Source of the DNA: Aequorivita marisscotiae
GTDB taxonomy: Bacteria > Bacteroidota > Bacteroidia > Flavobacteriales > Flavobacteriaceae
DNA length: 64,000 nucleotides
Reading direction: 5' to 3'
NCBI RefSeq assembly: GCF_029814825.1
Contig: NZ_CP122379.1
Span: forward strand, 1,798,001-1,862,000
Part shown: piece after piece, positions 29,680 to 42,536 of the stretch
Numbering within the stretch: position 1 is the first letter of the stretch
How the letters are laid out: every line of letters starts with the position of its first letter
Notes under the pieces: model-generated
Told to the model about the DNA's origin: nothing
The model's input: the letters and a program-made list of their open reading frames with translations, nothing else
Databases searched by the model: none
Program-made: the position numbers and the translations under genes

Positions 29680-30225
29680 TTGTCAGATTTACTATTAATT
29701 GAACAATGTAAAAACTGCGATCGCAAAGCGCAAATGGCGCTATATGGTAAATACTGTAACGGCATGTTTATTATTGCCAACAGATATTTAAAAGACACTG
29801 CGGCTGCGGAAGATGCCATGCAAGATGCATTTATTAAAGCATTTCAAAAATTGAGCCAATTTACTGGCGACGTAACCTTTGGCGCTTGGTTAAAGCGCAT
29901 TGTAATAAATACCTGCCTTGACAGCATTAAACGCAATAAGATGGAATTACAATCTTTAAACGAAGAAGTTTTTACAATGGTCCACGAAGATTCGGATTGG
30001 ACAATTGCCGATGAAGCCACAATTTCAGAGGTGCTGGCTGCCATTGAATCTTTGCCGGAAAATTACAAACTTACGGTTAAGCTATTTTTATTGGAAGGCT
30101 ACGATCATCAGGAAATTTCAGAAATACTGCAGATTTCTGAAAATGCTTCTCGAACCTATTTGCACCGCGGAAAATCAAAATTAAAAGAAAAATTAAAACA
30201 CTTGCGTTATGGCACAGGATATTAA
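29680..30225 (+). CDS. ECF-type RNA polymerase sigma factor
   Basis: 181 residues from TTG 29680. The region-2 helix NRYLKDTAAAEDAMQDAFIKAF binds core polymerase and the -10 region, and the region-4 helix-turn-helix has LPENYKLTVKLFLLEGYDHQEIS. It steers transcription of a small set of genes in response to an envelope signal. Its end overlaps the anti-sigma-like gene by 17 bases, so regulator and antagonist are translated together. Confidence 0.92.
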   Translation: MSDLLLIEQCKNCDRKAQMALYGKYCNGMFIIANRYLKDTAAAEDAMQDAFIKAFQKLSQFTGDVTFGAWLKRIVINTCLDSIKRNKMELQSLNEEVFTMVHEDSDWTIADEATISEVLAAIESLPENYKLTVKLFLLEGYDHQEISEILQISENASRTYLHRGKSKLKEKLKHLRYGTGY

Positions 30226-30829
30226 AAAATTACTCGAAAATTACACGCCGGAGCCCGGCAAGCTTCCGAAGGGGCACGAAGCGCGTTTTGAGGCGAAACT
30301 ACATAAAGTATTTTCAGAAAAATCATCTAAAGCAGATACTGGTATAATACTTTATTTAAAAATTGCCGCGATAGTTGTTGTGTTTATTGCCGTAAGCTTT
30401 TTTGGATACCAACAACTGTCTAATATCTCGTCGGTAATTTCTGAAAATCCAAATAGTCAGGTTGTTGAAAATTCCTCTCAAAAGCCAGAGGATAAGATGG
30501 CTCCAAAACTTACATTGGCAGATATTTCACCAGATCTTAAAAAAGTAGAGGAGTATTACATGGCCGGTATTAACGTGCAACTGGCCTCTCTAAAAATAAC
30601 CGAGGAAAACAGAGATGTGGTAGATGGTTATATGCAACGGCTCGCCGAACTGGATAAAGAATACAATTTGCTCAATGCCGAATTGAGCACCTTGGGCCCC
30701 ACCGAAGCTACTGTAACTGCCCTAATCGATAATTTAAAGCTGCGTTTGGATTTGCTGTTCAAACTAAAAAACAAATTAAAAGAACTTAAAACTCAAAATA
30801 ATGAAGAATTTAAAGCTATACAATCCTAA
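30209..30829 (+). CDS. Probable anti-sigma factor, single membrane helix
   Basis: 206 residues. A cytoplasmic part (1-45) contains KGHEARFEAKL, a block I know from flavobacterial anti-sigma factors; the His/Cys zinc motif of classical anti-sigma domains is absent. One membrane helix (about 50-70) and a mostly helical periplasmic part follow. It should hold the upstream sigma factor at the membrane. It overlaps the sigma gene by 17 and the next gene by 29 bases. Confidence 0.75.
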   Translation: MAQDIKKLLENYTPEPGKLPKGHEARFEAKLHKVFSEKSSKADTGIILYLKIAAIVVVFIAVSFFGYQQLSNISSVISENPNSQVVENSSQKPEDKMAPKLTLADISPDLKKVEEYYMAGINVQLASLKITEENRDVVDGYMQRLAELDKEYNLLNAELSTLGPTEATVTALIDNLKLRLDLLFKLKNKLKELKTQNNEEFKAIQS

Positions 30830-32204
30830 CATCCTCATCGCTTTGCTGCTGGTTTGTACCTTGGGCTATTCGCAACAAAAATATGTTGAAAGCTTCAATG
30901 TAATCGATAATGTTGAAGTTTCTGTAAACACCTCTTTTACCAACGTTATTTTTGAAACTTGGAACAAAAATAAAGTGGAAGTTGAAGCTTTTATTGAAGA
31001 CGATAACCTTTCTAAAAGTGAAAGGGAGCAACAAATGAAAAACTGGAAGTTAGACGTATTGGGAAATAGTAAAAGAATAACTATTAATTCAAACGTCGCC
31101 AACCAAAGTTTTGCAATGGCCGATATGCCTTCTATGGATTTTATTGGGCCTTTGATGGAAGACATGGTTTTACCGATGATCCAAAACGTAAAAGTACCTC
31201 CGTTACCAGAGGAATTACTTGAAAATATTGGTAATATACAATTTGATTATGAAGCTTTTAAAAAAGATGAAGAGGGGTATATGAAGAAATTTGAAGCCCA
31301 AATGGATAAAAAATTCGGGAAAGATTTTGAAAAGCGAATGGAAGAGTGGGGTAAAAGCTTTGAAGCCATGTGGGACGAAAAAAGAGCCGATAGTATTGGG
31401 GAAGCCTATGGGAAAAAGATGGAAGCTTGGGGCGAAAATTTTGGGCAGCGCATGGAAGCTTGGGGCGAAGAATACGGACAAAAAATGGAGGCTTGGGCCA
31501 GTGAATTGGAAAGGAATATAGAAAAGAATGGTGGAGATTATTCAAAAACCGTAACCAAATCGCCGAGCGGTACAGCTATTGTTATAAAAGGAAGCAGCAG
31601 TAACAAGACTAATAGAACGATAATTATAAGGTTGCCGAAAAACACCAAAACAGAAATAAACATTCGTCATGGCATTTTAAAAATGGCCGACGCCAGCAAT
31701 GTAAATGCCAATTTAAATTATACGCCCTTTACCGCAAACAGTATTGATGGTGACCGTACATCAATTAATGCTGCATATGCACCGGTTACTGTTAACCTGT
31801 GGAAACAAGGTGTTTTGAATATAAAATTTGTTGACAAATGCAATATAGAAAATTTGCAAAATATTAGTCTCCAAGCCAATTCCAGCGATGTGCGAATAGG
31901 AACAATTACTAACCAAGCTTTTCTATCGGGCTCCTTTGGCAATTTACGTATTGATAAGGTTGCCGATGGTTTTGAAACATTAGATATACGTTTGGAAAAT
32001 ACAGACGCACGGGTAAAAGTGCCTACGGGTGCGTTTTCATTTTATTTTACAGGGAATAAATCTACGCTCAAATACCCAAAAAGACTTCAATTAAAAGAAT
32101 CTAAAAATGCAGGCCGTGTTTTAGTGAAAGGGTTTAATCAAAATAGCGCGACTACTAAAACCATTACTATAAATTCTAATTATAGTAATGTTTCGCTTCA
32201 ATAA
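30801..32204 (+). CDS. Exported protein with hendecad repeats and beta-helix-like C terminus
   Basis: 467 residues. The signal peptide ends at about LGYSQQ (25). A long helical middle (about 140-245) carries an 11-residue repeat with invariant Trp (MEAWGENFGQR-type units). The C-terminal ~200 residues are repeats of short strands resembling DUF4097-type adhesin-like beta helices. As third gene of the sigma/anti-sigma operon it may be a target or sensor. It overlaps the anti-sigma gene by 29 bases. Confidence 0.75.
   Translation: MKNLKLYNPNILIALLLVCTLGYSQQKYVESFNVIDNVEVSVNTSFTNVIFETWNKNKVEVEAFIEDDNLSKSEREQQMKNWKLDVLGNSKRITINSNVANQSFAMADMPSMDFIGPLMEDMVLPMIQNVKVPPLPEELLENIGNIQFDYEAFKKDEEGYMKKFEAQMDKKFGKDFEKRMEEWGKSFEAMWDEKRADSIGEAYGKKMEAWGENFGQRMEAWGEEYGQKMEAWASELERNIEKNGGDYSKTVTKSPSGTAIVIKGSSSNKTNRTIIIRLPKNTKTEINIRHGILKMADASNVNANLNYTPFTANSIDGDRTSINAAYAPVTVNLWKQGVLNIKFVDKCNIENLQNISLQANSSDVRIGTITNQAFLSGSFGNLRIDKVADGFETLDIRLENTDARVKVPTGAFSFYFTGNKSTLKYPKRLQLKESKNAGRVLVKGFNQNSATTKTITINSNYSNVSLQ
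31419..31499 (+). repeat. 33-base tandem repeat encoding an 11-residue unit
   Basis: Units start at 31419, 31452 and 31485. The first 18 bases (ATGGAAGCTTGGGGCGAA) are identical in units 1 and 2; unit 3 diverges after ATGGAGGCTTGGGC. Weaker 11-residue units precede it (ADSIGEAYGKK, KSFEAMWDEKR). An 11-residue period fits a right-handed coiled coil. Confidence 0.75.
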
Positions 32205-32299: not shown

Positions 32300-33598
32300 C
32301 TATTGTTTTATCACCTTAAAGTTTTCAACACTACCATTGCTCGCAACTTTTACAAGATATACACCACTTGTAAGATTTGAAAGATTGATATCCGTAAGGT
32401 TATCATTAAAAGTAACATTAGACACTAATTGACCTGTAATTGTATAAACTGCTACCGAATCAATTGCCTCTTTTGAATTTAAATGAAGTATATTTTCAAC
32501 AGGGTTTGGATAAAACGAAACTGAATTTTGTGATACGTGGTTTGTACCCAAGATAAGATCGTCAAGATACACCATCCAACCTTCAGCAAATGGAGGAGGA
32601 CCATTTAACCAACCAGTAACATATTTTCCGTTCGGGGAAACGGCGATTGCGGTACCTAAAAGTCCGTCTGCCGTATTTACGGTAATGCCATTATCTGCCA
32701 ATACATCTTTTAAATAAAGTGGTTGGTCGCCCAATGAAGGGTGATAAATAATTGCATCTCTTGTTTGAAAGTCTACATCTGCAAAACCCACGGCTACACC
32801 ATTTTCTGAAATACTTGCAAAAGCAGCGGAGTCTGCACCAGCTGGATTATCAAAACTTGTAAATGTATTGCTCGCACGATCATAAATAAATGGTCTTAAA
32901 TCAAAATCGCCCACCATTACATCCGAGCTATTAATATCGTTAATGGTATTAATACCGGTAAGTGTTGGCAATTGACCTTCAGGGATTAAGTGATATTCCC
33001 CATCTAAGGTTCTATACGCTGGTACGCGAAGGGTTCCTCCACTATCCGGTCTATCTACCCATCCTACCATGATACCATTATCATTAACGGCGTACGCGGC
33101 ACTTGCTTCTCCTTGGGGATCTAAAGAAATTATAAGCTCTTCGGTTTGTGTATTGTACAAAAATCCGCCGTAGTCATTTCCAATGTTAGATTGGCCTGTT
33201 ACATATTGGCTGTTTGGAGATATTCCGTATGGTGTGTTTTCATCATAATCGTATGGATCTTGCTCTGCAGTAAAACCTATTGGGTTCCAAACACCATTAA
33301 ATCTGTAGGCTGCTTGTAGAATGAATTCTGGTTCATCAAAAAACATATATCCGGCAACATTACCATCGTTATTATTTGCCTGTACCATAAATGCGTCAGA
33401 CTCGATTGGTGTAAAAGTATTCGTCTCAAAGTCGTAATAATCAAAAACTGTAACTCCGAAGCCATTGTCGTTTACGTCGTTAAAACGGGTAGACATTTCG
33501 GTTTGTACTTTAAGTTCAATTTGCGCTTGTGCTGCGAATGCCGCCATTAAAAAACACGCTAAAATTGTGCTTTTCGTTAAAAAAGTAATTTTCTTCAT
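32300..33598 (-). CDS. T9SS-secreted HAF-like repeat protein, module copy A
   Basis: 432 residues. The signal peptide is cleaved near AAQAQ (about 25). The middle consists of repeats of the type AVNDNGIMVGW, SISENGVAVGFAD and AVSPNGKYVTGW, which look like the HAF extracellular repeat. The last ~75 residues are the type A sorting domain (FYPNPVENILHLNS, GVYLVKV), so it crosses the outer membrane by the type IX system and is cell-surface bound or released. It is the last gene of module A, 184 bases after the TPR partner gene. Confidence 0.85.
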   Translation of the reverse strand: MKKITFLTKSTILACFLMAAFAAQAQIELKVQTEMSTRFNDVNDNGFGVTVFDYYDFETNTFTPIESDAFMVQANNNDGNVAGYMFFDEPEFILQAAYRFNGVWNPIGFTAEQDPYDYDENTPYGISPNSQYVTGQSNIGNDYGGFLYNTQTEELIISLDPQGEASAAYAVNDNGIMVGWVDRPDSGGTLRVPAYRTLDGEYHLIPEGQLPTLTGINTINDINSSDVMVGDFDLRPFIYDRASNTFTSFDNPAGADSAAFASISENGVAVGFADVDFQTRDAIIYHPSLGDQPLYLKDVLADNGITVNTADGLLGTAIAVSPNGKYVTGWLNGPPPFAEGWMVYLDDLILGTNHVSQNSVSFYPNPVENILHLNSKEAIDSVAVYTITGQLVSNVTFNDNLTDINLSNLTSGVYLVKVASNGSVENFKVIKQ

Positions 33599-33678
33599 TT
33601 TCGTTTATAAATAGAATTAGTAAAATTTGATGCCGCAAAGTAAAGCGAATCCAGCAATTTTAAAAGTAACGCCCTTTC

Positions 33679-33693
33679 AGAATTCAGAATTCT
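33679..33693. promoter_or_regulatory. Inverted repeat upstream of T9SS gene A
   Basis: AGAATTC-A-GAATTCT is a perfect 7-1-7 palindrome 81 bases before the start at 33598. A TTTAGGGGTATTT stretch at 33746-33758 resembles the right half of the elements at 284-306 and 1647-1662. Either may be an operator. This is inferred from position only. Confidence 0.3.
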
Positions 33694-33782
33694 AATACCG
33701 TTTAATTGTTAAAATGCTAAAAATTAGGCGGTTAACGTGGGGTGGTTTAGGGGTATTTCGTTAGGTTATCAGCAGTAAAAAA

Positions 33783-34910
33783 TTAAAATTCCAATTTTTT
33801 CTTAAGTGATTTTAGACTCTTTTCCGAATAAATTACCGAACGAATTAATAAAATAACACCGAGTAGAATTAAAGAAATAAATAATATTTGAAGAATTCTC
33901 GTGGTTTTTTTAACGGATGCAAGTTTTTTAGAATTCGTGATAATTAAATCGTTGATAGATGTATCTATCGTTTGCCTTTCTGTTTTTGTAAGTTCTTTGT
34001 GGATTTCTAAATTTTTACTTTTAAATACCGCATAACCTTTTAAATTGCCTGTGGCCAAATAATTTGTCGCTAAGGCATTATACAAGGCTCGATTTAAAAC
34101 TTTGTCGCCAACATCCTGCGAATTTTGTAGCGCTTCTTCAATAAGCGCTATAGCTTTTTGATATTCGCCTTGTGATGTGTAAACTTCGGCAAGTCCTTTT
34201 TGGGCAAAGGCTACCAAGCTTTTTGCGTCTATTGTTTTGGCATATTTTACCCCTTGCAAAAAGCTGTTTTCTGCTTCCTTGAGTCTTCCTAAAGTAATTA
34301 AACAATTGCCCCTATTGTAATAAGAAGTACTAATATTGGCTTTTACCGCGGGATGATCCAGAATATTTTTATAATCTTCTATGGCTTTTTCGAAATAATT
34401 AAGTGCAATATCGCAACTCATCTGTTCGCGATATACAAAACCACGTACTAAATTATTGTAACCCAAGCTTCTAATGGTTACTTCATTTTGAGGCAATTGC
34501 TCAATTAACAATTTGGCTTGGTCTAAATACGTAATGGCTTTGTCGTATATTTTTAGCTCTTGATATTGCCCGCCAATTCTATTTAAAAGTTTAATCTTTA
34601 AATAAGCGTCGGTTAATTTGGGTAATAATTCTAGGGCTTTAAGGGTGTATTCCAAAGATTTTTCATAATCTCTTTTAGATGAATAGGCTGTAGATATAAT
34701 TAAATACACCCGTACTTTGGCATCTGCCGAAAGATTAGTTTTGGTGAGTATCTCGGTTGCCAGTTTAATTGAGGTATCGGGATTTTCGTAAATCTGCTGC
34801 GTGGCTACCGAAAGAATGCTATCTGTCTTGGATTGCGACAACGCAGTTAGTGGCAACAATATAATTGCTGCCATCCATAAATACCTTTTATATAAACAAT
34901 TAGTTGTCAA
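33783..34910 (-). CDS. TPR protein with C-terminal membrane anchor, copy A
   Basis: 375 residues. A signal peptide or N-terminal anchor (about 10-25) is followed by about seven TPR-like helix pairs (for example ISTAYSSKRDYEKSLEY, GNCLITLGRLKEAENSF) up to about residue 310. One membrane helix (about 338-357) and a short basic tail ending KSLKKKLEF follow. The TPR part should be periplasmic. Its start overlaps the regulator stop by four bases (ATGA), so the two are made in step. It is a clear paralogue of 39583-40713 (same blocks STAYSSKRDYEK and NYLATGN). Confidence 0.85.
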   Translation of the reverse strand: MTTNCLYKRYLWMAAIILLPLTALSQSKTDSILSVATQQIYENPDTSIKLATEILTKTNLSADAKVRVYLIISTAYSSKRDYEKSLEYTLKALELLPKLTDAYLKIKLLNRIGGQYQELKIYDKAITYLDQAKLLIEQLPQNEVTIRSLGYNNLVRGFVYREQMSCDIALNYFEKAIEDYKNILDHPAVKANISTSYYNRGNCLITLGRLKEAENSFLQGVKYAKTIDAKSLVAFAQKGLAEVYTSQGEYQKAIALIEEALQNSQDVGDKVLNRALYNALATNYLATGNLKGYAVFKSKNLEIHKELTKTERQTIDTSINDLIITNSKKLASVKKTTRILQILFISLILLGVILLIRSVIYSEKSLKSLKKKLEF

Positions 34911-36463
34911 TTTTTAGATTGCTTTGTGCCAATTCGTTCTTTTTTATCTTTTAAAATAGTAATAAAAGCTGTGGGTGGAATGCCTGTTACCGATTTAAAT
35001 ACCGTAGCGAATAAACTATGCGATGTAAACCCGCTATCCTGAGCCAAATAACTTATTTTGTATTGTAAATAGGCCGGGTCTTTTTTTAGTTTTTCAATTA
35101 TATAATTTATGCGCAGTTCGTTTATATAAGCGTTGAAATTCTTTTGTTTATGGAAATTTACAACCTCCGAAAGATATTTTGTATTTGTTTCAAATTGAAG
35201 TGCCAATAATGAAAGCGACATATCTTGCTTTGTGAATTCGATAGAATTTTCAAAGGTGTTTAACTTTTCTAAAATCTTTTCTTCGGTTTCTTTCGGAACT
35301 GTAGAGTGTTTTACAACTTCTTCCTTTGGTGGAGTAATGGCTGCTGGTTTTTGCTTTTTTTCAAAATACTCAATATAGTTTTCGTATTGCTTTGCTTTTA
35401 TTCGATAACGAAAAGCCAAATAGCCCCACAATAGTAACACCATAATTAAAAGAGCACTAAAAAATAAAACATTCCAACGTAAAGACTTTTGGGCTGTTGC
35501 CAACTTTTCTGCCTCATTGGTGCTGCTGAAATTAAAAGCTATATTAACTGCGTCATTTTCCACATCGGTCTGTGCGCTGTTTAGCAATTGTGTTTTGGCA
35601 TTTTGATTTTTAAAGTTTTCTAAATCGTTTAGAGCTAAATAATTATCTGCGATTGCTTCTGATATAGAAATTTGCTCCTGAAGATGTGTGAATTTTTCGG
35701 CAATGCGCAGTGCAACTTGCAAAGAATCGATTGCGGCGGTATGCTGTTTTTGAAGAAAGAGATAATTGCCAAAAAGTTGCAAACTCTTCATTTCCAGATA
35801 ATTTTCGGGATTGTATTTTTTGCTTTCAGTGTATGCCTCATCAAGGTAGTACGAAACAGAATCTAACTGAAATTCGCGAAGCTGTAGGGCTGCAATGTCT
35901 AAATTAATATTTCCAATTTGTGATGTCTGGAAAGGCCCAGTAAATTTAGTGAGGTAGGCCTTTGATTTATAGAGTCTTTGAAAAGTTTTTTGTGTTGCTT
36001 CAGCAGAATCTGATACGGTGTTGTATTGTAAAATCTTTCCCTGCAACCACTCTTGTATGGCGCTATCTGTCAGGGAATTGGATGCCTTAATTGCAGCAGT
36101 TGTGTATCTTGTAGCGAGCTTATTTAACTCTAACTCCTTCAATATTTTTATTAGTAACGCATATAGTTTTACATTGTTTATAGATAACTCCTGAGTGTTG
36201 TCATGGAGTGCTTTTAAACCAACCTCCAACGCCTTATCCAGCGTGCCTTGTATATAGTAACTGGTTGTTAAAAGATACGAAGCGTGAAGGCGTTGTGCAG
36301 GATTATCTGTTTTAGTGTTTATATATTCAACAATGCGAATAGCTTCCTGCGGGTTAGCGTAAATTGTATTTTCGGCTTGCGTTAATAACTGATTTATATT
36401 GTCCTCTTGCGAGATAGACAATTGAAAGTTAAACAAAATCAGTACTAAACAAAAGAAGCGCAT
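34907..36463 (-). CDS. Trans-envelope TPR-TM-AraC regulator, copy A
   Basis: 518 residues. The signal peptide ends at about SISQ (19). Periplasmic TPR helices (about 20-300), a membrane helix (about 330-351), a charged linker and a cytoplasmic AraC-type DNA-binding domain (about 410-503, with NTKYLSEVV, NAYINELRINYIIEKL and GFTSHSLFATVFKSVTG) follow. It senses something with the TPR part and binds DNA directly, a one-component system that spans the membrane. It is a paralogue of 40697-42253 with the same length. Confidence 0.9.
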   Translation of the reverse strand: MRFFCLVLILFNFQLSISQEDNINQLLTQAENTIYANPQEAIRIVEYINTKTDNPAQRLHASYLLTTSYYIQGTLDKALEVGLKALHDNTQELSINNVKLYALLIKILKELELNKLATRYTTAAIKASNSLTDSAIQEWLQGKILQYNTVSDSAEATQKTFQRLYKSKAYLTKFTGPFQTSQIGNINLDIAALQLREFQLDSVSYYLDEAYTESKKYNPENYLEMKSLQLFGNYLFLQKQHTAAIDSLQVALRIAEKFTHLQEQISISEAIADNYLALNDLENFKNQNAKTQLLNSAQTDVENDAVNIAFNFSSTNEAEKLATAQKSLRWNVLFFSALLIMVLLLWGYLAFRYRIKAKQYENYIEYFEKKQKPAAITPPKEEVVKHSTVPKETEEKILEKLNTFENSIEFTKQDMSLSLLALQFETNTKYLSEVVNFHKQKNFNAYINELRINYIIEKLKKDPAYLQYKISYLAQDSGFTSHSLFATVFKSVTGIPPTAFITILKDKKERIGTKQSKN

Positions 36464-36651
36464 GACTGCAGGATATTTTGCAGTAAAAATAGCTACTACG
36501 GTATTAAATTAAGAATGAAATTTTATAAAATATGATTTTATTTTCAATTACTACAAACTACTGATAATCAACACTTTTATTTATTTAGTGCTATTAGGTG
36601 GTTTTATTGTTAAAACGGTGCCAGCACTTTAGTTTTCAATTACTCAATAAA

Positions 36652-36683
36652 AAAACCGCCCCCAAATAAATGAGGACGGTTTT
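36652..36683 (-). terminator. Terminator of the 884-residue T9SS gene
   Basis: AAAACCG (36652-36658) pairs with CGGTTTT (36677-36683), and an inner CC/GG pairing is possible. The T tract is on the minus-strand side. It closes module B before module A begins. Confidence 0.75.
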
Positions 36684-36731
36684 CTCAAAAAAAAAATCTA
36701 ACTATGAATAAAAATTACTATTAACTAATTT

Positions 36732-39386
36732 TTAATTTTTTACAATTTTATACGTGCCAATAGCATTGTTGGTTATTACTTTCGCGAAATATATTCCTGT
36801 AGCCAAGGAGTTTAAATTAATTTCGCCCTGCATTGCATTTAAGTTTTTAAACATTAAACGCTGACCATTCACGCTGTAAACCTCAACTGATTTAATTTCT
36901 TTATTACCAGAAATTTGTAAAACATCTTTAACTGGATTTGGGTATAAAGCCACGCCCGTAAGTTGGTTGTCGCTTACACCAAGAGCTTCACAAGTTAACT
37001 GTAATTGGAAATTTCCAGCCTTGGTATCGTCATAACCTTCTATCATTATAATGTAGGTTGACGTACCGTCAGATTCAAATTCTAGTTCTGGTTGGTTAAC
37101 ACATGAACTGTCATTAAAAGCTATTTGCGTAGTTAAATTACAATCGCTGTAAACGCGAACAGTAGTAGGAAAAGTTGTGTCGGGGCCACAGGCATTAAGA
37201 GTAATGGTTTCTGCGGTACCGTTTCCTGTGTACGAGTAAAACACATCTGGAGAAGCGTTCCCGCCAGAATCAGTTCCAAATATTGTTGAATTAGTAACCA
37301 AGTCGCCACACGCTAGCGCAATTGCTTCAACACAATCGTCGTTCGTAGGGACGGTAGGCATTTGTACTCTATATGTAAACAATTCTCCCCAAGGACCAAT
37401 TGTAGCGTCGTATCCCCAGCCGGTAATATATTCTCCATTTGAAGAAATAGCATTTGGTACATAAATAGGGCTCGCAGTCATTGTATATCCTAAAGTTTCG
37501 GTTATAAAAGTGTTGAATTCTTGTATTCCACCACTTGGAGTCCAAATAAAGGGAATATTTGGGTCAAAAGGTCCTACTTGAAAGAAACCTATTACAACAG
37601 AACCGTCGTGATTTATTCCAGTTACGCTGCCTGCACTACCTGGAGATAGCGTTCCCAATGATATATATCCCGTAGCTTCACTCCAAATCCATGGTTCGTT
37701 ATTGTTAGCATAATCCCCGTCGCCGCCTATCCAATTACCATCTGCAGAAATGGCACTACACTCGCCTAATTGGTTAAATTCGTCATTTGGGTCGCCATTT
37801 GGATCTAATAATAGATATTCGTTTGGCAACCAATTTCCGTTAGCGTCTTTACGCCATACTGCCGATTTCCAAGGCCCGTTAAAATCTTGCCATCCCACAA
37901 TTACACTTCCATCACCACTTACGGCATTGGCTCTTGTGCTTCGGTTTATATTTTGATACAAGCTTCCTAAATCTACTAAACCATCTACTTCTGTCCAAGC
38001 TGTTGCGTGAACCGCCAAGCCAGGCTCTCCGGGAGTAGGAGTAACATAGGCGCTACCAACTACTGTACTACCATCTTCAGAAATGTTATACCCCGAACTT
38101 AGTCCGATGTCAGACGAAACGCCGAAACTCCCCAAAATAGTCCATTCGGCATCGGCTACATTGTACATTGATTGAATTGAGAATGTATTGGTTTCGACTT
38201 CTTTTCTAAACATAACCCCCTGCGAACCGAAAACAAATCCGCGGCCATTTGGCGTGTAAACTACTTCGTAAAGAGCCTCGTTGTATGTAGAAGTGCCCAT
38301 ATTGTTTACTGGAAAAGTTTCTCCACCATCTTCTGAGCTAAAAATCATTTCCGGTGTTCCTATTAAAGTAACATGGTCTGCATCTAGCCACGCTACATCG
38401 CGCCAGATTGGACCAGGGCTGTTTGCAACCGTTATAGTTTGCCAAGTGGCGCCTCCATCCGTAGTTTTTAGTACTATATCGTCACCTACGGCGAAACCTG
38501 TATTCATATCATAGAATTCAATACCAGCTAAAATTTGCGAACCAGAATGAACCGTAGTCCAAGTTGCCCCGTTATCTGTAGATTTTTGAATTGTCCCCCC
38601 GTTTGAAGCCATAAAGTACGTGTCTCCCCCAACATATGTAAGTTGGTCTGGAATTGCGGCTACTCCAGTAGCAGCGGTCCAGGTGTTACCACCATCAGAC
38701 GTATAGTATATAGTGCCAGGCGCACTATTGGGGAAAGCTCCAATAATTCCGTTCTGTGTATCCTTAAAAACCACATCGGTATAAAACCAAATATCTGTAC
38801 CTGGTGTCATCGGTGTCCAAGTATTTCCAGCATCGGAGGTTTTACCGGCGTAAGCGCTCCACCCTACAACATAACCTGTATAAGAATCTGGAAAACTGAT
38901 ACCTTCAATACCTTGATCGGTTCCGGTCCAAATTTGTTCCCAGCTATCGCCGGCATCGTAGGTTCGTAAAACTATGCCATCGCCGTTGTAGGTAACAGAT
39001 TGTCCTGCGGCAAATCCAAGTGAGTTTTGATTATCTGGAAATTCAATACCGGTAAAAATATAATTATAACCCGTATTTAACTTTTCCCATTCTGTTGGGG
39101 TTGTAATTTCTGTATACGAAGTACCCGACAACAGGTTACCATCGCCAGAAAATCTAACTGCGCCGCCTACACCTTGACCGGGTGCGGCACCGCCAATTAT
39201 TTCGAACGTATTAGTATCCGGATTCCAAAGTGAATACGGTCCGGCTTGGGCTTCATACCCAGAAATTACACCTTCATTAGAAACGCCTTGTGTTTCGAAA
39301 AAAGTTGGCTTTACCACAAATTGGGCAAAAATGCTACCTGAACTAATAGCAAAGACAGTTAGAAATAGTAATAGTGTTTTTTTCAT
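36732..39386 (-). CDS. T9SS-secreted YCF48/HAF repeat protein, module copy B
   Basis: 884 residues. The signal peptide ends at about SIFAQ (22). The first half has BNR/YCF48-like propeller repeats (SDAGNTWTPM, TSDGGNTWTAAT, STDNGATWTTV, TTDGGATWQTI). The second half has HAF-like repeats (NAVSGDGSVIVGW, LGTLSPGSAGSVTGI, AISSNGEYITGW), then a Cys-containing beta domain (about 690-800) and a type A sorting domain (VALYPNPVKDVLQ, GIYFAKVITN). It shares the HAF part with 32300-33598. It lies between the regulator pairs and belongs to the upstream pair by order. Confidence 0.87.
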   Translation of the reverse strand: MKKTLLLFLTVFAISSGSIFAQFVVKPTFFETQGVSNEGVISGYEAQAGPYSLWNPDTNTFEIIGGAAPGQGVGGAVRFSGDGNLLSGTSYTEITTPTEWEKLNTGYNYIFTGIEFPDNQNSLGFAAGQSVTYNGDGIVLRTYDAGDSWEQIWTGTDQGIEGISFPDSYTGYVVGWSAYAGKTSDAGNTWTPMTPGTDIWFYTDVVFKDTQNGIIGAFPNSAPGTIYYTSDGGNTWTAATGVAAIPDQLTYVGGDTYFMASNGGTIQKSTDNGATWTTVHSGSQILAGIEFYDMNTGFAVGDDIVLKTTDGGATWQTITVANSPGPIWRDVAWLDADHVTLIGTPEMIFSSEDGGETFPVNNMGTSTYNEALYEVVYTPNGRGFVFGSQGVMFRKEVETNTFSIQSMYNVADAEWTILGSFGVSSDIGLSSGYNISEDGSTVVGSAYVTPTPGEPGLAVHATAWTEVDGLVDLGSLYQNINRSTRANAVSGDGSVIVGWQDFNGPWKSAVWRKDANGNWLPNEYLLLDPNGDPNDEFNQLGECSAISADGNWIGGDGDYANNNEPWIWSEATGYISLGTLSPGSAGSVTGINHDGSVVIGFFQVGPFDPNIPFIWTPSGGIQEFNTFITETLGYTMTASPIYVPNAISSNGEYITGWGYDATIGPWGELFTYRVQMPTVPTNDDCVEAIALACGDLVTNSTIFGTDSGGNASPDVFYSYTGNGTAETITLNACGPDTTFPTTVRVYSDCNLTTQIAFNDSSCVNQPELEFESDGTSTYIIMIEGYDDTKAGNFQLQLTCEALGVSDNQLTGVALYPNPVKDVLQISGNKEIKSVEVYSVNGQRLMFKNLNAMQGEINLNSLATGIYFAKVITNNAIGTYKIVKN

Positions 39387-39510
39387 TTTAAAAGTTTTTG
39401 TTGATTAAATTGAAGTCCTTTAACTGAAAGCTAAAGTAGAGGGTGTATTACTATTATAAAAGGAAGTATCTTTTAAAATTCACGAATTTAAAAAGCACAA
39501 ATTACGTGTA

Positions 39511-39531
39511 AAATATTGATAGTCAATATTT
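39511..39531. promoter_or_regulatory. Inverted repeat upstream of T9SS gene B
   Basis: AAATATTGA-TAG-TCAATATTT is a perfect 9-3-9 inverted repeat, 125 bases before the T9SS start at 39386 and just after the TPR partner gene. It could be an operator of the module or a weak terminator of the partner gene. It lacks a GC-rich stem. Confidence 0.35.
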
Positions 39532-39582
39532 TAAATTGATGTAAAAATATATTGGGATATTGGTAGAGTAAGTGTGAAAAAA

Positions 39583-40713
39583 CTAACTTTTTAACTCATT
39601 TTCTAGCTTTTTCAACTCCTTTTCCCAACGAATTATGGTACGGATAAGAAGGAAAAGTGCTACTGCAATTACAATTATGAAGATAATTTGAATGGGTAAA
39701 AAATCCTTTCGGAGGTTCTCAATTTCTTTCGCTTTTGCACGGGTTAAATTTAGAAGAGATTGATTGATGGTTTTTCTTTCCGAAATTTTATTGGCTTTTT
39801 TTATCGCCACATATTTATTTTGATAAAGCGTATATTTTTCCCAATTGCCAGTGGCGAGATAATTATTTGCCAATCCTTCATAAATTTCTCGGTTTAGAAC
39901 AAGATCACCCACATTGCCGGAAATAGCCAAAGCATCGTTTAGTAGCGCCAAAGCTTCATTGTGATTTCCGTTTAAAGCTTCCGTTTCGGCCAATCCTTTT
40001 TTGCCAAATGCAATCAAACTTTTGGCATCATCAATTTGGGCATGTTCAATAGATTTTAGAAAACTTATCTTCGCCTGTGTAAGATCATTAATTTCCAATA
40101 AACAATTGCCCTTGTTGTAAAAACAAATACTCAAGTTGGCATGCATAATTGGTTTACGTCCAACAGTAGTGGTATAAGCTGCTATGGCTTCGTCAAAATA
40201 TTTTAGAGCGATGTTGCAATTAGTCTGTTTGCGATAAATAAACCCCCGTAATATTGAGTTATACCCCAAAAAGGTTTGGACGGAATCTTGAACAGGATAT
40301 TTTTCGATTAAGATCAGCGATTCATCAAGATATTCCAAAGCTTTGTCATAAATCTGAAGCTCTTGATAATGAGCGCCAATTCTATTTAGAATATTCATTT
40401 TTTGAAAATCGTTGGTAACTTGCGGGATTAGTTTGTTTATTGCCGCGATATATTCCGAAGCTTTTTCATAATCGCGCTTAGAAGAATACGCAGTAGAAAT
40501 TACCAATAGTGCGTTAATCTTATTCCGAACGGTAATCTGTGGGTTATCCAGGGCTTTTGTAACAATTAAAATGGCTTCTTCCGGATTTTCATAAATTTGT
40601 TTATTTGCACTCTTTAAAATGCTATCCACATCTTTTTGCGAATGCATTATTTGAGCAAAAAGGAATATTCCTGCAAAAAATAGGATGGCACTATATTTAT
40701 TCCACTTCCTCAT
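39583..40713 (-). CDS. TPR protein with C-terminal membrane anchor, copy B
   Basis: 376 residues, a paralogue of 33783-34910. It has an N-terminal signal (LFAQIMHSQ, about 26), TPR-like pairs (STAYSSKRDYEKASEY, NRIGAHYQELQIYDKALEYLD), NNYLATGNWEKY, one membrane helix (about 342-358) and a charged tail ending ENELKS. It should present its TPR array in the periplasm. The start overlaps the regulator stop by 17 bases. Confidence 0.85.
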   Translation of the reverse strand: MRKWNKYSAILFFAGIFLFAQIMHSQKDVDSILKSANKQIYENPEEAILIVTKALDNPQITVRNKINALLVISTAYSSKRDYEKASEYIAAINKLIPQVTNDFQKMNILNRIGAHYQELQIYDKALEYLDESLILIEKYPVQDSVQTFLGYNSILRGFIYRKQTNCNIALKYFDEAIAAYTTTVGRKPIMHANLSICFYNKGNCLLEINDLTQAKISFLKSIEHAQIDDAKSLIAFGKKGLAETEALNGNHNEALALLNDALAISGNVGDLVLNREIYEGLANNYLATGNWEKYTLYQNKYVAIKKANKISERKTINQSLLNLTRAKAKEIENLRKDFLPIQIIFIIVIAVALFLLIRTIIRWEKELKKLENELKS

Positions 40714-42253
40714 AAACAGGTTTTGAAGATTTTTTTGAAGATTTTAATAAATCGATAAAAACAGTTGGCGATATGCCGGTAACTGCTTTAAAAACGGTAG
40801 CAAAACTACTGTGGGAAGAAAAACCGCTCTCCTCTGCCAAATAACTAATTTTATACTGAAGATACGTTCTATTGCTTTTTAACTTGTCTATAATATAATT
40901 AATACGAAGCTCATTAATGTAACTGTTGAAATTTTTTCCCTTATGCGAATTTATTACCTCCGAAAGATATTTAGTGTTTGTATCTAGGTTTGCTGCCAAT
41001 AGCGCCAACGACATGTCCTGTTTGGTAAATTGTTTCGATTTTTCAAACTGGGCCAATTTGTTAACCAACGCATTTTCGGTTTCCTGCGGAATGTTGAGTC
41101 CTTTTGAAACTTCTTTTATCGGAACAATCTCTACTGGATTTTTTCTATTTTCAAAAAAGGTTAAAAACCGATTGTACTGTTTTGCTCGTCTTCGATATCG
41201 AAAACGCAGTAGGAGCCAGATAAGTATAATCAATGCCAAAAATGCCGATGATATTAGCATGTTTTTGGTAAACTTCAACTTTAAAATGTCTCTTTTGGCT
41301 GTATTGTTTTTATTTACATAATTGTAAATGGCGTTTACTGCTTGCTCTTCCGCTGTTTCAACTTCATCATCTAATTGTTGTACATTTTTTTTATAGGAAT
41401 AGAATTGTGATGTGTTTTTTAATGCCAAATAAACAGATGAAAGATTTTCCGAAATCTGCGATTGGTAAGTAATATTTTCGAACAATTTGGCAATTTGCAA
41501 TGCAGTTTGGTACGATTCAATAGCTTTTGCATACTCTTGCCTTAAAAAAAACAATTCCCCCATTTTGTTTAGAACTACCATTTTTAAATAGTTGTTGGGC
41601 TGTTGCCCGCCGGTAGTTTCAAGAATTGTGTTAAGGTGGGCCTGCGCGGTATCTACGCTGTAGAGCTTTGGATATATTTCAGCAATTGAAACAATAGTTT
41701 CGTTAACCAAAACTGGATCGGGAATATTTTTAAAAAATGAGTTTGCCTGCTCAAAATACGTAAAAGCTTCCTGCCACTTGTCTTTTTCCGATGCTTGGTA
41801 GGCTTGCACCAGTGCGTTGCCACCTTTAAGATAGAGTGAATCTACTTGAGTAAGTGTCGTTGCCAAAACTTTGGTGTTTTTATAGTATTGCTGGGCCACG
41901 ATATCTAAACCGAGATGGTTCAATATAGGAATTGAAGCCATGGTAGCCTGTAGTTGCATAGATACATTTGTAGATGCTTCTGCAAGTATTTTTGCTTCAA
42001 CACCCGCTTTTACTGCATCTTCAAACGCGCCTTTTAAGTAATAGGCAGTGGTGTTGAGTAGGTAAGCTTTTAAAAGTTGATTGGAGTTTTCTGAATTTTG
42101 TAAAACGTGGTTTGCTATTTTAATCGATTCATCGGGTTGGGTGTACAGAATGGTTTCGGCATTTAGTAACATTTCTGCGTAATCACCATCGTTTTGCCCT
42201 ATAGCATTCAATGTGAAAAAAAGCAAGAAAAACAAGTGTAAAAAAGCCCGCAT
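40697..42253 (-). CDS. Trans-envelope TPR-TM-AraC regulator, copy B
   Basis: 518 residues, as in copy A. The signal peptide ends around NAIGQ (20). Periplasmic TPR helices run to about residue 310, the membrane helix has MLISSAFLALIILIWLLLRF, and the cytoplasmic AraC-type domain (about 405-503) has NTKYLSEVINSHKGKNFN, YINELRINYIIDKL and GFSSHSSFATVFKAVTG. The DNA-binding part is much closer to copy A than the sensing part, so the two may read similar sites but different signals. It is the first gene of module B. Confidence 0.9.
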   Translation of the reverse strand: MRAFLHLFFLLFFTLNAIGQNDGDYAEMLLNAETILYTQPDESIKIANHVLQNSENSNQLLKAYLLNTTAYYLKGAFEDAVKAGVEAKILAEASTNVSMQLQATMASIPILNHLGLDIVAQQYYKNTKVLATTLTQVDSLYLKGGNALVQAYQASEKDKWQEAFTYFEQANSFFKNIPDPVLVNETIVSIAEIYPKLYSVDTAQAHLNTILETTGGQQPNNYLKMVVLNKMGELFFLRQEYAKAIESYQTALQIAKLFENITYQSQISENLSSVYLALKNTSQFYSYKKNVQQLDDEVETAEEQAVNAIYNYVNKNNTAKRDILKLKFTKNMLISSAFLALIILIWLLLRFRYRRRAKQYNRFLTFFENRKNPVEIVPIKEVSKGLNIPQETENALVNKLAQFEKSKQFTKQDMSLALLAANLDTNTKYLSEVINSHKGKNFNSYINELRINYIIDKLKSNRTYLQYKISYLAEESGFSSHSSFATVFKAVTGISPTVFIDLLKSSKKSSKPVYEEVE

Positions 42254-42331: not shown

Positions 42332-42536
42332 TTGTCCGATTAAAAATCATGTTTTTCCCCTACGGGACATTTGTTTAGGTGCGATCTCTTGATTACCAAT
42401 ATTTTGCCCAGCTGGAGCAGTATGCCGTTAGGCATTAAATATGGGTAAAAAAATAGAGCCCCGTCAATTCCTAGTCCCGTAGGGACTACATATAATATGG
42501 GGTTTTCCAGAGTTAGTCATTACTTTTATCGGACAA
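42332..42536. repeat. Short element with terminal inverted repeats and hairpins
   Basis: The ends are TTGTCCGATTAAAA (42332-42345) and, inverted, TTGTCCGATAAAA (42536-42524). Inside are compact hairpins: ATGCC-GTTA-GGCAT (42422-42435) and TAGTCCC-GTA-GGGACTA (42472-42488), plus CCCCTACGGGAC (42357-42368). I recall CCGTAGGGAC and GCCGTTAGGC blocks as dispersed repeats in Bacteroidota genomes. No coding sequence lies inside. It is probably a non-autonomous mobile or REP-like element. No target duplication is clear. It fills most of the 42254-42612 gap. Confidence 0.6.

Follow-up and report, generated by a model that had tools for sequence, protein, structure and literature searches.

In the co-component systems VtrA/VtrC, ToxR/ToxS, PsaE/PsaF and MarT/FidL, a membrane-tethered transcription factor is joined by a membrane-anchored periplasmic co-sensor encoded in a neighboring and often overlapping gene, and for PsaE/PsaF and MarT/FidL the target is the gene of a surface protein, an adhesin or autotransporter (PMC9214523). 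We analyzed a 64,000-nucleotide stretch of the genome of Aequorivita marisscotiae (Flavobacteriaceae; contig NZ_CP122379.1, positions 1,798,001 to 1,862,000; hereafter the window) that holds two tandem copies of a unit with a comparable layout: a regulator with tetratricopeptide repeats (TPRs), a transmembrane (TM) helix and an AraC-type helix-turn-helix (HTH), a second TPR protein termed the partner, and a cargo of the type IX secretion system. On the strength of sequence comparisons, we propose that regulator and partner probably act as a co-component activator, in which a two-chain TPR receptor controls usually one and sometimes two surface-protein genes.

Type IX secretion serves many cargos, and to our knowledge little is known about how single ones are controlled. 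PorXY-SigP with PorA of Porphyromonas gingivalis also ties a type IX sorting-domain protein to transcription, but it is a two-component system with a sigma factor for secretion-machine genes rather than a dedicated regulator of one cargo (PMC7712824). In the sprCDBF gliding operon, the genes of SprC and SprD stand before those of a giant type IX adhesin and a PorP/SprF protein, an order similar to that of the units with a type B cargo described below (PMC9723704; further sources on SprC/SprD are PMC9870892, PMC12635249, PMC5879114 and PMC10202324). Systems of the VtrA/VtrC type have a CadC-like N-terminal HTH and a lipocalin-like co-sensor (PMC9214523), whereas the HTH here is C-terminal and AraC-type and both receptors are TPR proteins; a Pfam scan of the window proteins found no CadC-like HTH or lipocalin-like domain. 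Unlike the enteric co-component systems, the units reside in Bacteroidota and have a type IX cargo. The same domain order is found in the partnerless TPR-TM-AraC regulators of Bacteroidota, which appear as lower-scoring hits of our regulator profile, but these have no partner gene and, in the stretches fetched, no operator-like site of at least 14 bits. Among the openly licensed papers listed as matches, none was found to describe a regulator-partner-cargo unit in its title or at the beginning of its abstract.

Two tandem regulator-partner-cargo units

Both three-gene units were borne out as tandem sets of regulator, partner and type IX secreted cargo. A first-pass annotation of the window had listed six minus-strand genes in two copies of the same order, and their coordinates, their lengths and the overlaps between partner and regulator genes, 4 bases in copy 1 and 17 bases in copy 2, were confirmed. 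In the direction of transcription, the features are:

40697..42253, minus strand: regulator copy 2, 518 amino acids (aa), with an N-terminal hydrophobic stretch (probable signal peptide), a TPR solenoid, one internal TM helix and a C-terminal AraC-type HTH_18
39583..40713, minus strand: partner copy 2, 376 aa, with an N-terminal hydrophobic stretch, a TPR solenoid, one internal TM helix and a short tail
39470..39495, minus strand: operator-like site of copy 2, CTTTTTAAATTCGTGAATTTTAAAAG
39431..39438, minus strand: probable -7 box of the copy 2 cargo promoter, TACTTTAG, 31 nt after the site
36732..39386, minus strand: cargo copy 2, 884 aa, with a Ycf48/BNR propeller match, a weak HAF-like match and a type A sorting domain
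34907..36463, minus strand: regulator copy 1, 518 aa, with HTH_18 and one internal TM helix; its N-terminal signal peptide is a reading by eye and lies below the hydropathy threshold used
33783..34910, minus strand: partner copy 1, 375 aa, TTG start as called, with TPRs, one internal TM helix and, by eye, a signal peptide
33674..33692, minus strand: operator-like site of copy 1, in a diverged form, GAATTCTGAATTCTGAAAG
33635..33642, minus strand: probable -7 box of the copy 1 cargo promoter, TACTTTGC, 31 nt after the site
32300..33598, minus strand: cargo copy 1, 432 aa, with a weak HAF-like match and a type A sorting domain

Since the copies share just 38% identity between the regulators (522 columns) and 44% between the partners (355 columns), the duplication looks old. 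At E ≤ 1e-15 the partner profile finds two places in the whole genome, as does the regulator profile at E ≤ 1e-40; a search with a single sequence also matched a third protein, in its HTH part only.

The three-gene unit is conserved in relatives

Among 299 genomes of the family, including that of A. marisscotiae, 25 were matched by the partner profile, one of which (G030, locus L042) turned out to have a regulator without a partner and was dropped before counting. A scan of named genomes yielded 65 loci, with the best partner identity, 78% against copy 1, in Aequorivita vitellina (L053). Altogether 98 partner rows were reduced to 85 by dropping identical partners and to 84 by leaving out L107, a weak fused hit of 952 aa; the resulting set includes both window copies, its gene starts are longest open reading frame (ORF) calls, and small ORFs below 110 aa between partner and cargo were ignored. 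The regulator gene lies directly upstream of the partner gene in 82 of these 84 non-redundant loci, at one of them (L022) as a 95 aa piece at a contig end, and the two exceptions are L041 and L065, the latter at a contig end as well. Directly downstream of the partner, 79 of the 84 encode a cargo with a recognized sorting signal (47 of type A, 32 of type B); the other five are four loci cut by a contig or stretch end (L030, L048, L090, L097) and L033, which lacks an adjacent cargo. Regulator and partner genes overlap at 52 of 82 joints, and the widest gap is 33 bp. The first-pass annotation had reasoned that the module would be accidental if most relatives lacked the type IX gene beside such pairs; with the cargo in place at 79 of 84 loci, the three-gene unit is, judged by gene neighborhood, no coincidence. 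At L090, two regulator-partner pairs stand in tandem.

In a draw of 395 genomes across the phylum, the partner profile matched nine. The stretches fetched from three of these (G220, G572, G577) held no regulator-partner pair, leaving six genomes including our own, three of which belong to another family of the order. The eight partner matches in this second family comprise seven pairs and one regulator without partner (L145), and a sorting-signal gene adjoins all seven pairs, downstream in four and divergently in three. Two further pairs come from one genome of the same family as A. marisscotiae, L149 with a type B cargo and L150 with none adjacent. The scores of the regulator profile split cleanly, with 26 places of at least 487 bits at partner loci, then four at 245-340 bits and then weaker ones, the last including two at partner loci, a truncated piece in G194 and one in G089; as scoring was confined to a few top candidates in each genome, weak relatives are undercounted.

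Regulator and partner are related predicted membrane receptors

HTH_18 is found in both window regulators above its cut-off of 33.6 bits (49.3 and 37.1 bits), which places them among AraC/XylS-type proteins, and Pfam finds TPRs in both partners. Names among 120 of 369 relatives, where given, read 'tetratricopeptide repeat protein' or 'hypothetical protein'. The AlphaFold models of regulator and partner (mean predicted local distance difference test, pLDDT, 86.1 and 87.5) both consist of a helical TPR solenoid and a single long helix containing the TM segment, beyond which an HTH is predicted in the regulator only; the modeled HTH matches the C-terminal domain of AraT (6swi, TMt 0.76). Searches of solved structures with the models returned TPR and AraC-type HTH matches and nothing more specific. 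The RRNPP TPR receptors Rap and NprR are among the Foldseek matches of the partner model (TM-score up to 0.56), at 11-16% identity and in a generic fold, with designed TPR proteins and LGN ranking above them; RRNPP receptors are cytoplasmic. The histidine kinase and receiver domains that would mark a hybrid two-component system (HTCS) did not appear among the Pfam matches at E ≤ 0.1.

Hydropathy predicts exactly one internal TM segment in 88 of 89 regulators and in all 89 partners, while an N-terminal hydrophobic stretch exceeds the threshold in only 63 of 89 regulators and in 65 of 89 partners. Lysine and arginine are richer after the internal segment than before it in 76 of 88 regulators. 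By this predicted topology, the regulator is a membrane-tethered transcription factor with a periplasmic sensor, and at 82 of 84 loci the adjacent gene encodes a co-sensor with its own membrane anchor, the combination that characterizes co-component systems. The partner profile aligns with the receptor half of the regulator over 368 columns (probability 99.9%, E 1.5e-36) and the match continues through the membrane helix; in these alignments the partner resembles the receptor half of the regulator minus its DNA-binding domain. Two cysteines, C166 and C204, occur in all 37 partners of alignment A7 and possibly form a disulfide. In the partner of L033, which is outside this alignment and has no adjacent cargo, the first of them, Cys166, is absent.

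The suggestion of the first-pass annotation that the partner senses together with the regulator is plausible in view of the receptor-half alignment, the overlap or gap of at most 33 bp at the joint and the partnerless lower-scoring regulators. It competes with an unlikely reading in which the regulator controls the cargo by itself, as a membrane-bound one-component system, and the partner is otherwise employed, for example in periplasmic help for the cargo. TPR proteins are often chaperones, in line with such help, and the lower-scoring homologous regulators do without a partner, some being followed by a large protein (at L136 by a 76 aa ORF and then a 2089 aa type B protein, at L137 by a 2063 aa protein without recognized signal). 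A solitary regulator fits poorly with a partner that matches the receptor half with the membrane helix included and whose gene, in the 82 scored pairs, either overlaps that of the regulator or is at most 33 bp away from it. The partner moreover stays with the regulator and not with the cargo where the cargo is divergent (L138-L140) or none is seen next to the pair (L033, L150), the contrary case being L041, where the partner adjoins the cargo and the regulator comes last.

A near-palindromic site precedes most cargo genes

Alignment of the partner-cargo intergenic regions revealed a near-palindrome. A 26-bp matrix built from it (23 bits) reaches a median of 27.3 bits in 82 intergenic regions, compared to -4.5 in shuffles, and 66 of the 82 outscore the best of 1640 shuffles. 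As this matrix was trained on the very regions it scored, other tests matter. When a matrix from 35 type A sites is run over the type B loci, the highest-scoring site of each locus (35 of 35) falls no more than about 420 bp ahead of a cargo; such windows make up roughly 4% of a locus (34 loci measured), which sets the chance level. The reverse test, with a matrix from 33 type B sites, succeeds in 35 of 46 type A loci, the misses being six of the clade with cargos of 1279-1299 aa, four second-family copies and L090, where the cargo behind the best site is truncated by the end of the stretch.

In 1.46 Mb of loci with duplicates excluded, 103 sites reach at least 15 bits. The script rule places 94 of them upstream of a cargo, and four more (L069, L077, L090, L104) lie, by reading, in cargo promoters missed through ORF calling or truncation; of the remainder, one follows the L033 partner, one precedes a 97 aa ORF (L092) and three are inside genes. 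The site at L033 (L033:10593, 17.8 bits) lies 107 bp past the partner that has no adjacent cargo. In the usual arrangement, a search upstream of 83 regulators found no site, the best score being 9.7 bits.

Genome-wide, a site with at most one mismatch occurs in 12 of the 25 genomes with a partner-profile hit and in 10 of the 274 without (Fisher p = 2.6e-9). Moving G030 to the other group gives 12/24 versus 10/275 (p = 1.4e-9), and leaving out G173 as well, whose site is not at the triad, gives 11/24 (p = 1.6e-8). The ten genomes with a site but no partner hit look like background, as the backward control pattern is matched by 13 genomes; nine of their 11 sites are inside genes. The one-mismatch site of G173 (L173, G173:C17) lies 76 bp before a gene that by eye resembles TonB-type receptors, and may be background or a second target.

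A -7-like box follows at a fixed distance. Thirty-one nucleotides after the site, T, A, T and T at offsets 31, 32, 35 and 36 are kept in 90-94% of 69 loci, and a TANNTTTG box with at most one mismatch is present in 57 of the 69, as opposed to 36% of shuffles, 43 of the 57 at offset 31. Both window sites have a TACTTT box 31 nt away. With the box 31 nt downstream, the site would sit immediately before the -33 region, a position that would suit an activator. A sigma-70 scan remained at chance level, finding 39 sites where shuffles gave 37.9 on average. Taken with regulator and cargo positions (82/84 and 79/84), the conserved site and its fixed spacing to the -7 box lend strong comparative support to the first-pass proposal that the pair controls the secreted protein.

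The two window copies have different candidate operators

In the genome of A. marisscotiae, the standard palindrome pattern is free of mismatches only before cargo 2 (39470..39495), with six other places at three mismatches, and its backward control has two matches per strand. The copy 1 pattern, of the GAATTCTGAATTCTGAAAG form, is mismatch-free only before cargo 1 and recurs with two mismatches at five other places. The regulators of copy 1 group in a supported clade with six members, of which the five with a scorable region reach 4.5-12 bits by the standard matrix. HTH changes specific to this clade include S484 to V or L, in 6 of 6 members compared to 0 of 33 type A regulators with the standard site. 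HTH residues 438, 440 and 448 (copy 2 numbering) distinguish the regulators of type A cargos from those of type B cargos, and the sites of the two groups are also different; phylogeny could be the cause of these differences between cargo types.

By their sequences, the window copies look insulated, with different operators. That they are instead redundant, each regulating both cargos, is improbable: the two HTH regions are much alike, as redundancy would have it, but the window operators differ in form, each fitting its own pattern without mismatch just once in the genome, and the copy 1 clade combines its own HTH changes (S484) with low standard-matrix scores. The rule that operators diverge only where both copies coexist fails. 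Coexistence is not the sole cause of divergence, because Aequorivita capsosiphonis (L045) has the diverged copy 1 form without a copy 2 in the stretch read.

The site accompanies the cargo gene in other arrangements

The site is also found between the regulator and a divergent cargo, at L138 (29.1 bits) and L140 (24.8 bits), neither of which was in the matrix training, and L149, also outside the training, scores 26.4 bits on one strand and 16.9 bits on the opposite one. In A. capsosiphonis (L045:9001-15297), three tandem cargos of 430-432 aa follow one regulator pair, and a copy-1-type site precedes each of them, two exact and the third with 2 mismatches. An exact site in G107 lies about 185 kb from the pair, 171 bp before the gene of a 993 aa protein with a type A signal, which shares 47% identity across its length with the counterpart cargo at L085. 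Since 23 sites in 22 loci precede a cargo that is not directly behind the partner, mostly of about 1000 aa, of type A and upstream of the regulator, one pair may serve two cargos. At L025, L075, L085, L090 and similar loci, the pair stands between a type A cargo of about 1000 aa and a further, often type B, cargo, both with a site.

It is very improbable that the palindrome belongs to an unrelated factor or works as an RNA element, for instance by terminating the regulator-partner operon, and is tied to the regulator by operon history alone: most sites do lie just past the partner gene and binding by the regulator is a prediction, but the site also stands between divergent regulator and cargo genes (L138, L140) and before tandem and unlinked cargos, keeps a fixed distance to the -7-like box, has a single mismatch-free place in the A. 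marisscotiae genome and an enrichment of 12/25 against 10/274 genomes (backward control 13/299), and in its diverged forms goes with particular regulator clades.

Cargo proteins

Por_Secre_tail is present in both window cargos, and among 27 cargos of our choice, these two included, it was found in 23 and CHU_C in 4, so that all have a type IX sorting signal. A PorP/SprF gene is usually the next after type B cargos. The cargo bodies are diverse: 85 of them fall into clusters of 46, 24 and 13 and two singletons, and what the two window cargos have in common is chiefly the sorting domain (62 bits), plus a single weak stretch of 29 bits in the body. The first-pass annotation had described the cargo as a HAF-repeat protein. 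This label is weak in the window, where TIGR02913 scores 14.2 and 14.4 bits against a curated cut-off of 22.65, and in the family the cargo is not bound to HAF repeats, as the largest cluster (46/85) is of another kind. Pfam matches in the 27 chosen cargos include fn3 (9), a galactose-binding domain (7), GEVED (5), cleaved-adhesin (4) and Ycf48/BNR (2); because no catalytic domain was seen among the 20 Pfam families listed for them, roles in surface attachment or matrix seem likelier than enzymes. The idea that the secreted cargo feeds back as a ligand found no support in this analysis, and the sorting domain as common ligand is disfavored, in that most second type A cargos with a site share their locus with a pair whose own cargo is of type B.

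Neighboring genes and SprB-like regions

Upstream of regulator 2, the window has an inverted element resembling repetitive extragenic palindromes (42470-42486, minus strand, GTCCCTACGGGACTAGG), which occurs at eight places in the genome, seven exact and one with one mismatch. On the other side, at 29680-32204 on the plus strand, genes were recognized by eye for a protein like the extracytoplasmic function sigma factors, for a probable anti-sigma factor and for a surface-like protein of 467 aa, and similar-looking sigma/anti-sigma pairs, also by eye, lie near the unit in L016-L019, L021, L022 and L045. At many loci secA is within the stretch.

An identification of regulator and partner with SprC and SprD was dropped, as neither profile has a match in five SprB-like regions (L155-L159), in which genes were named by gene order and F. 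johnsoniae was outside the comparison. At L156-L159 a protein with a type B C-terminal domain and a PorP-like protein stand before the giant, with an extra 167 aa ORF between in L157; at L155 the upstream ORF is a different gene on the opposite strand. The SprB-like gene of A. marisscotiae (C1:1948003 onward, an open frame of 6621 aa) follows a 165 aa ORF and, by eye, a release-factor-like gene on the opposite strand, and has neither regulator nor partner as neighbor.

A model for control by a split receptor

The triad, the HTH, the internal TM segment and the resemblance between the two receptors are features read from sequence, as are the site, its spacing and its association with the cargo in several arrangements, and from them we infer the topology in detail, binding, activation rather than repression, formation of a heteromer and the existence of a signal. 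In the co-component activator model, regulator and partner would be homologous TPR receptors of the inner membrane, with the TPR parts in the periplasm and the AraC-type HTH of the regulator in the cytoplasm. That their genes overlap or abut points to co-translation, and the two proteins probably build a mixed receptor. Upon a cue, the HTH domains of the regulator would bind, as a two-fold pair, the 26-bp near-palindrome, which ends 31 nt before the -7 box, and would activate the gene of the type IX-secreted surface protein. AraC-type regulators are habitually activators, which was used in choosing activation over repression. In the window, the unit would have been duplicated and the two copies would have drifted to different operators, so that each should drive its own cargo.

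A number of observations weigh against this model. Of the 82 intergenic regions, 16 do not score above the best shuffle, including the copy 1 clade and most of the clade with 1279-1299 aa cargos, and no site of at least 14 bits is present at L139 or L141-L144. The cross-test between cargo types is not fully independent, because the joint matrix had placed the training sites; the backward control pattern matches 13 of 299 genomes; and the G173 site is on a contig other than that of the pair, with no sorting-signal match in the part read of the gene behind it. The gene order at L041 is partner-cargo-regulator, and two pairs (L033, L150) have no adjacent cargo. TPR profiles are mutually similar in general, and the partner-regulator match may be inflated; the distance correlation between regulators and partners, 0.93, is uncorrected for species history, with which clade and cargo type are likewise confounded. 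In divergent units the site lies between both genes and so before the regulator as well, which makes autoregulation possible there. The preference for activation over repression, finally, is based on the position of the site and the habit of AraC-type proteins.

A more speculative and rather doubtful extension of the model is that the TPR pair reads the periplasmic passage of its own cargo and tunes transcription of that surface protein to its secretion, in which case duplication and operator drift would give parallel insulated circuits, one per surface protein.

The regulator pairs make up a family in culturable flavobacteria, each pair having one or two obvious targets and an operator-like site that can be read, and the duplication in the window offers a natural test of how insulation arises between paralogous regulators. 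If the co-component activator model is true, it would extend the co-component concept beyond enteric bacteria to the Bacteroidota, where it is built of unrelated parts, and would suggest a convergent use of split membrane receptors for the control of surface proteins.

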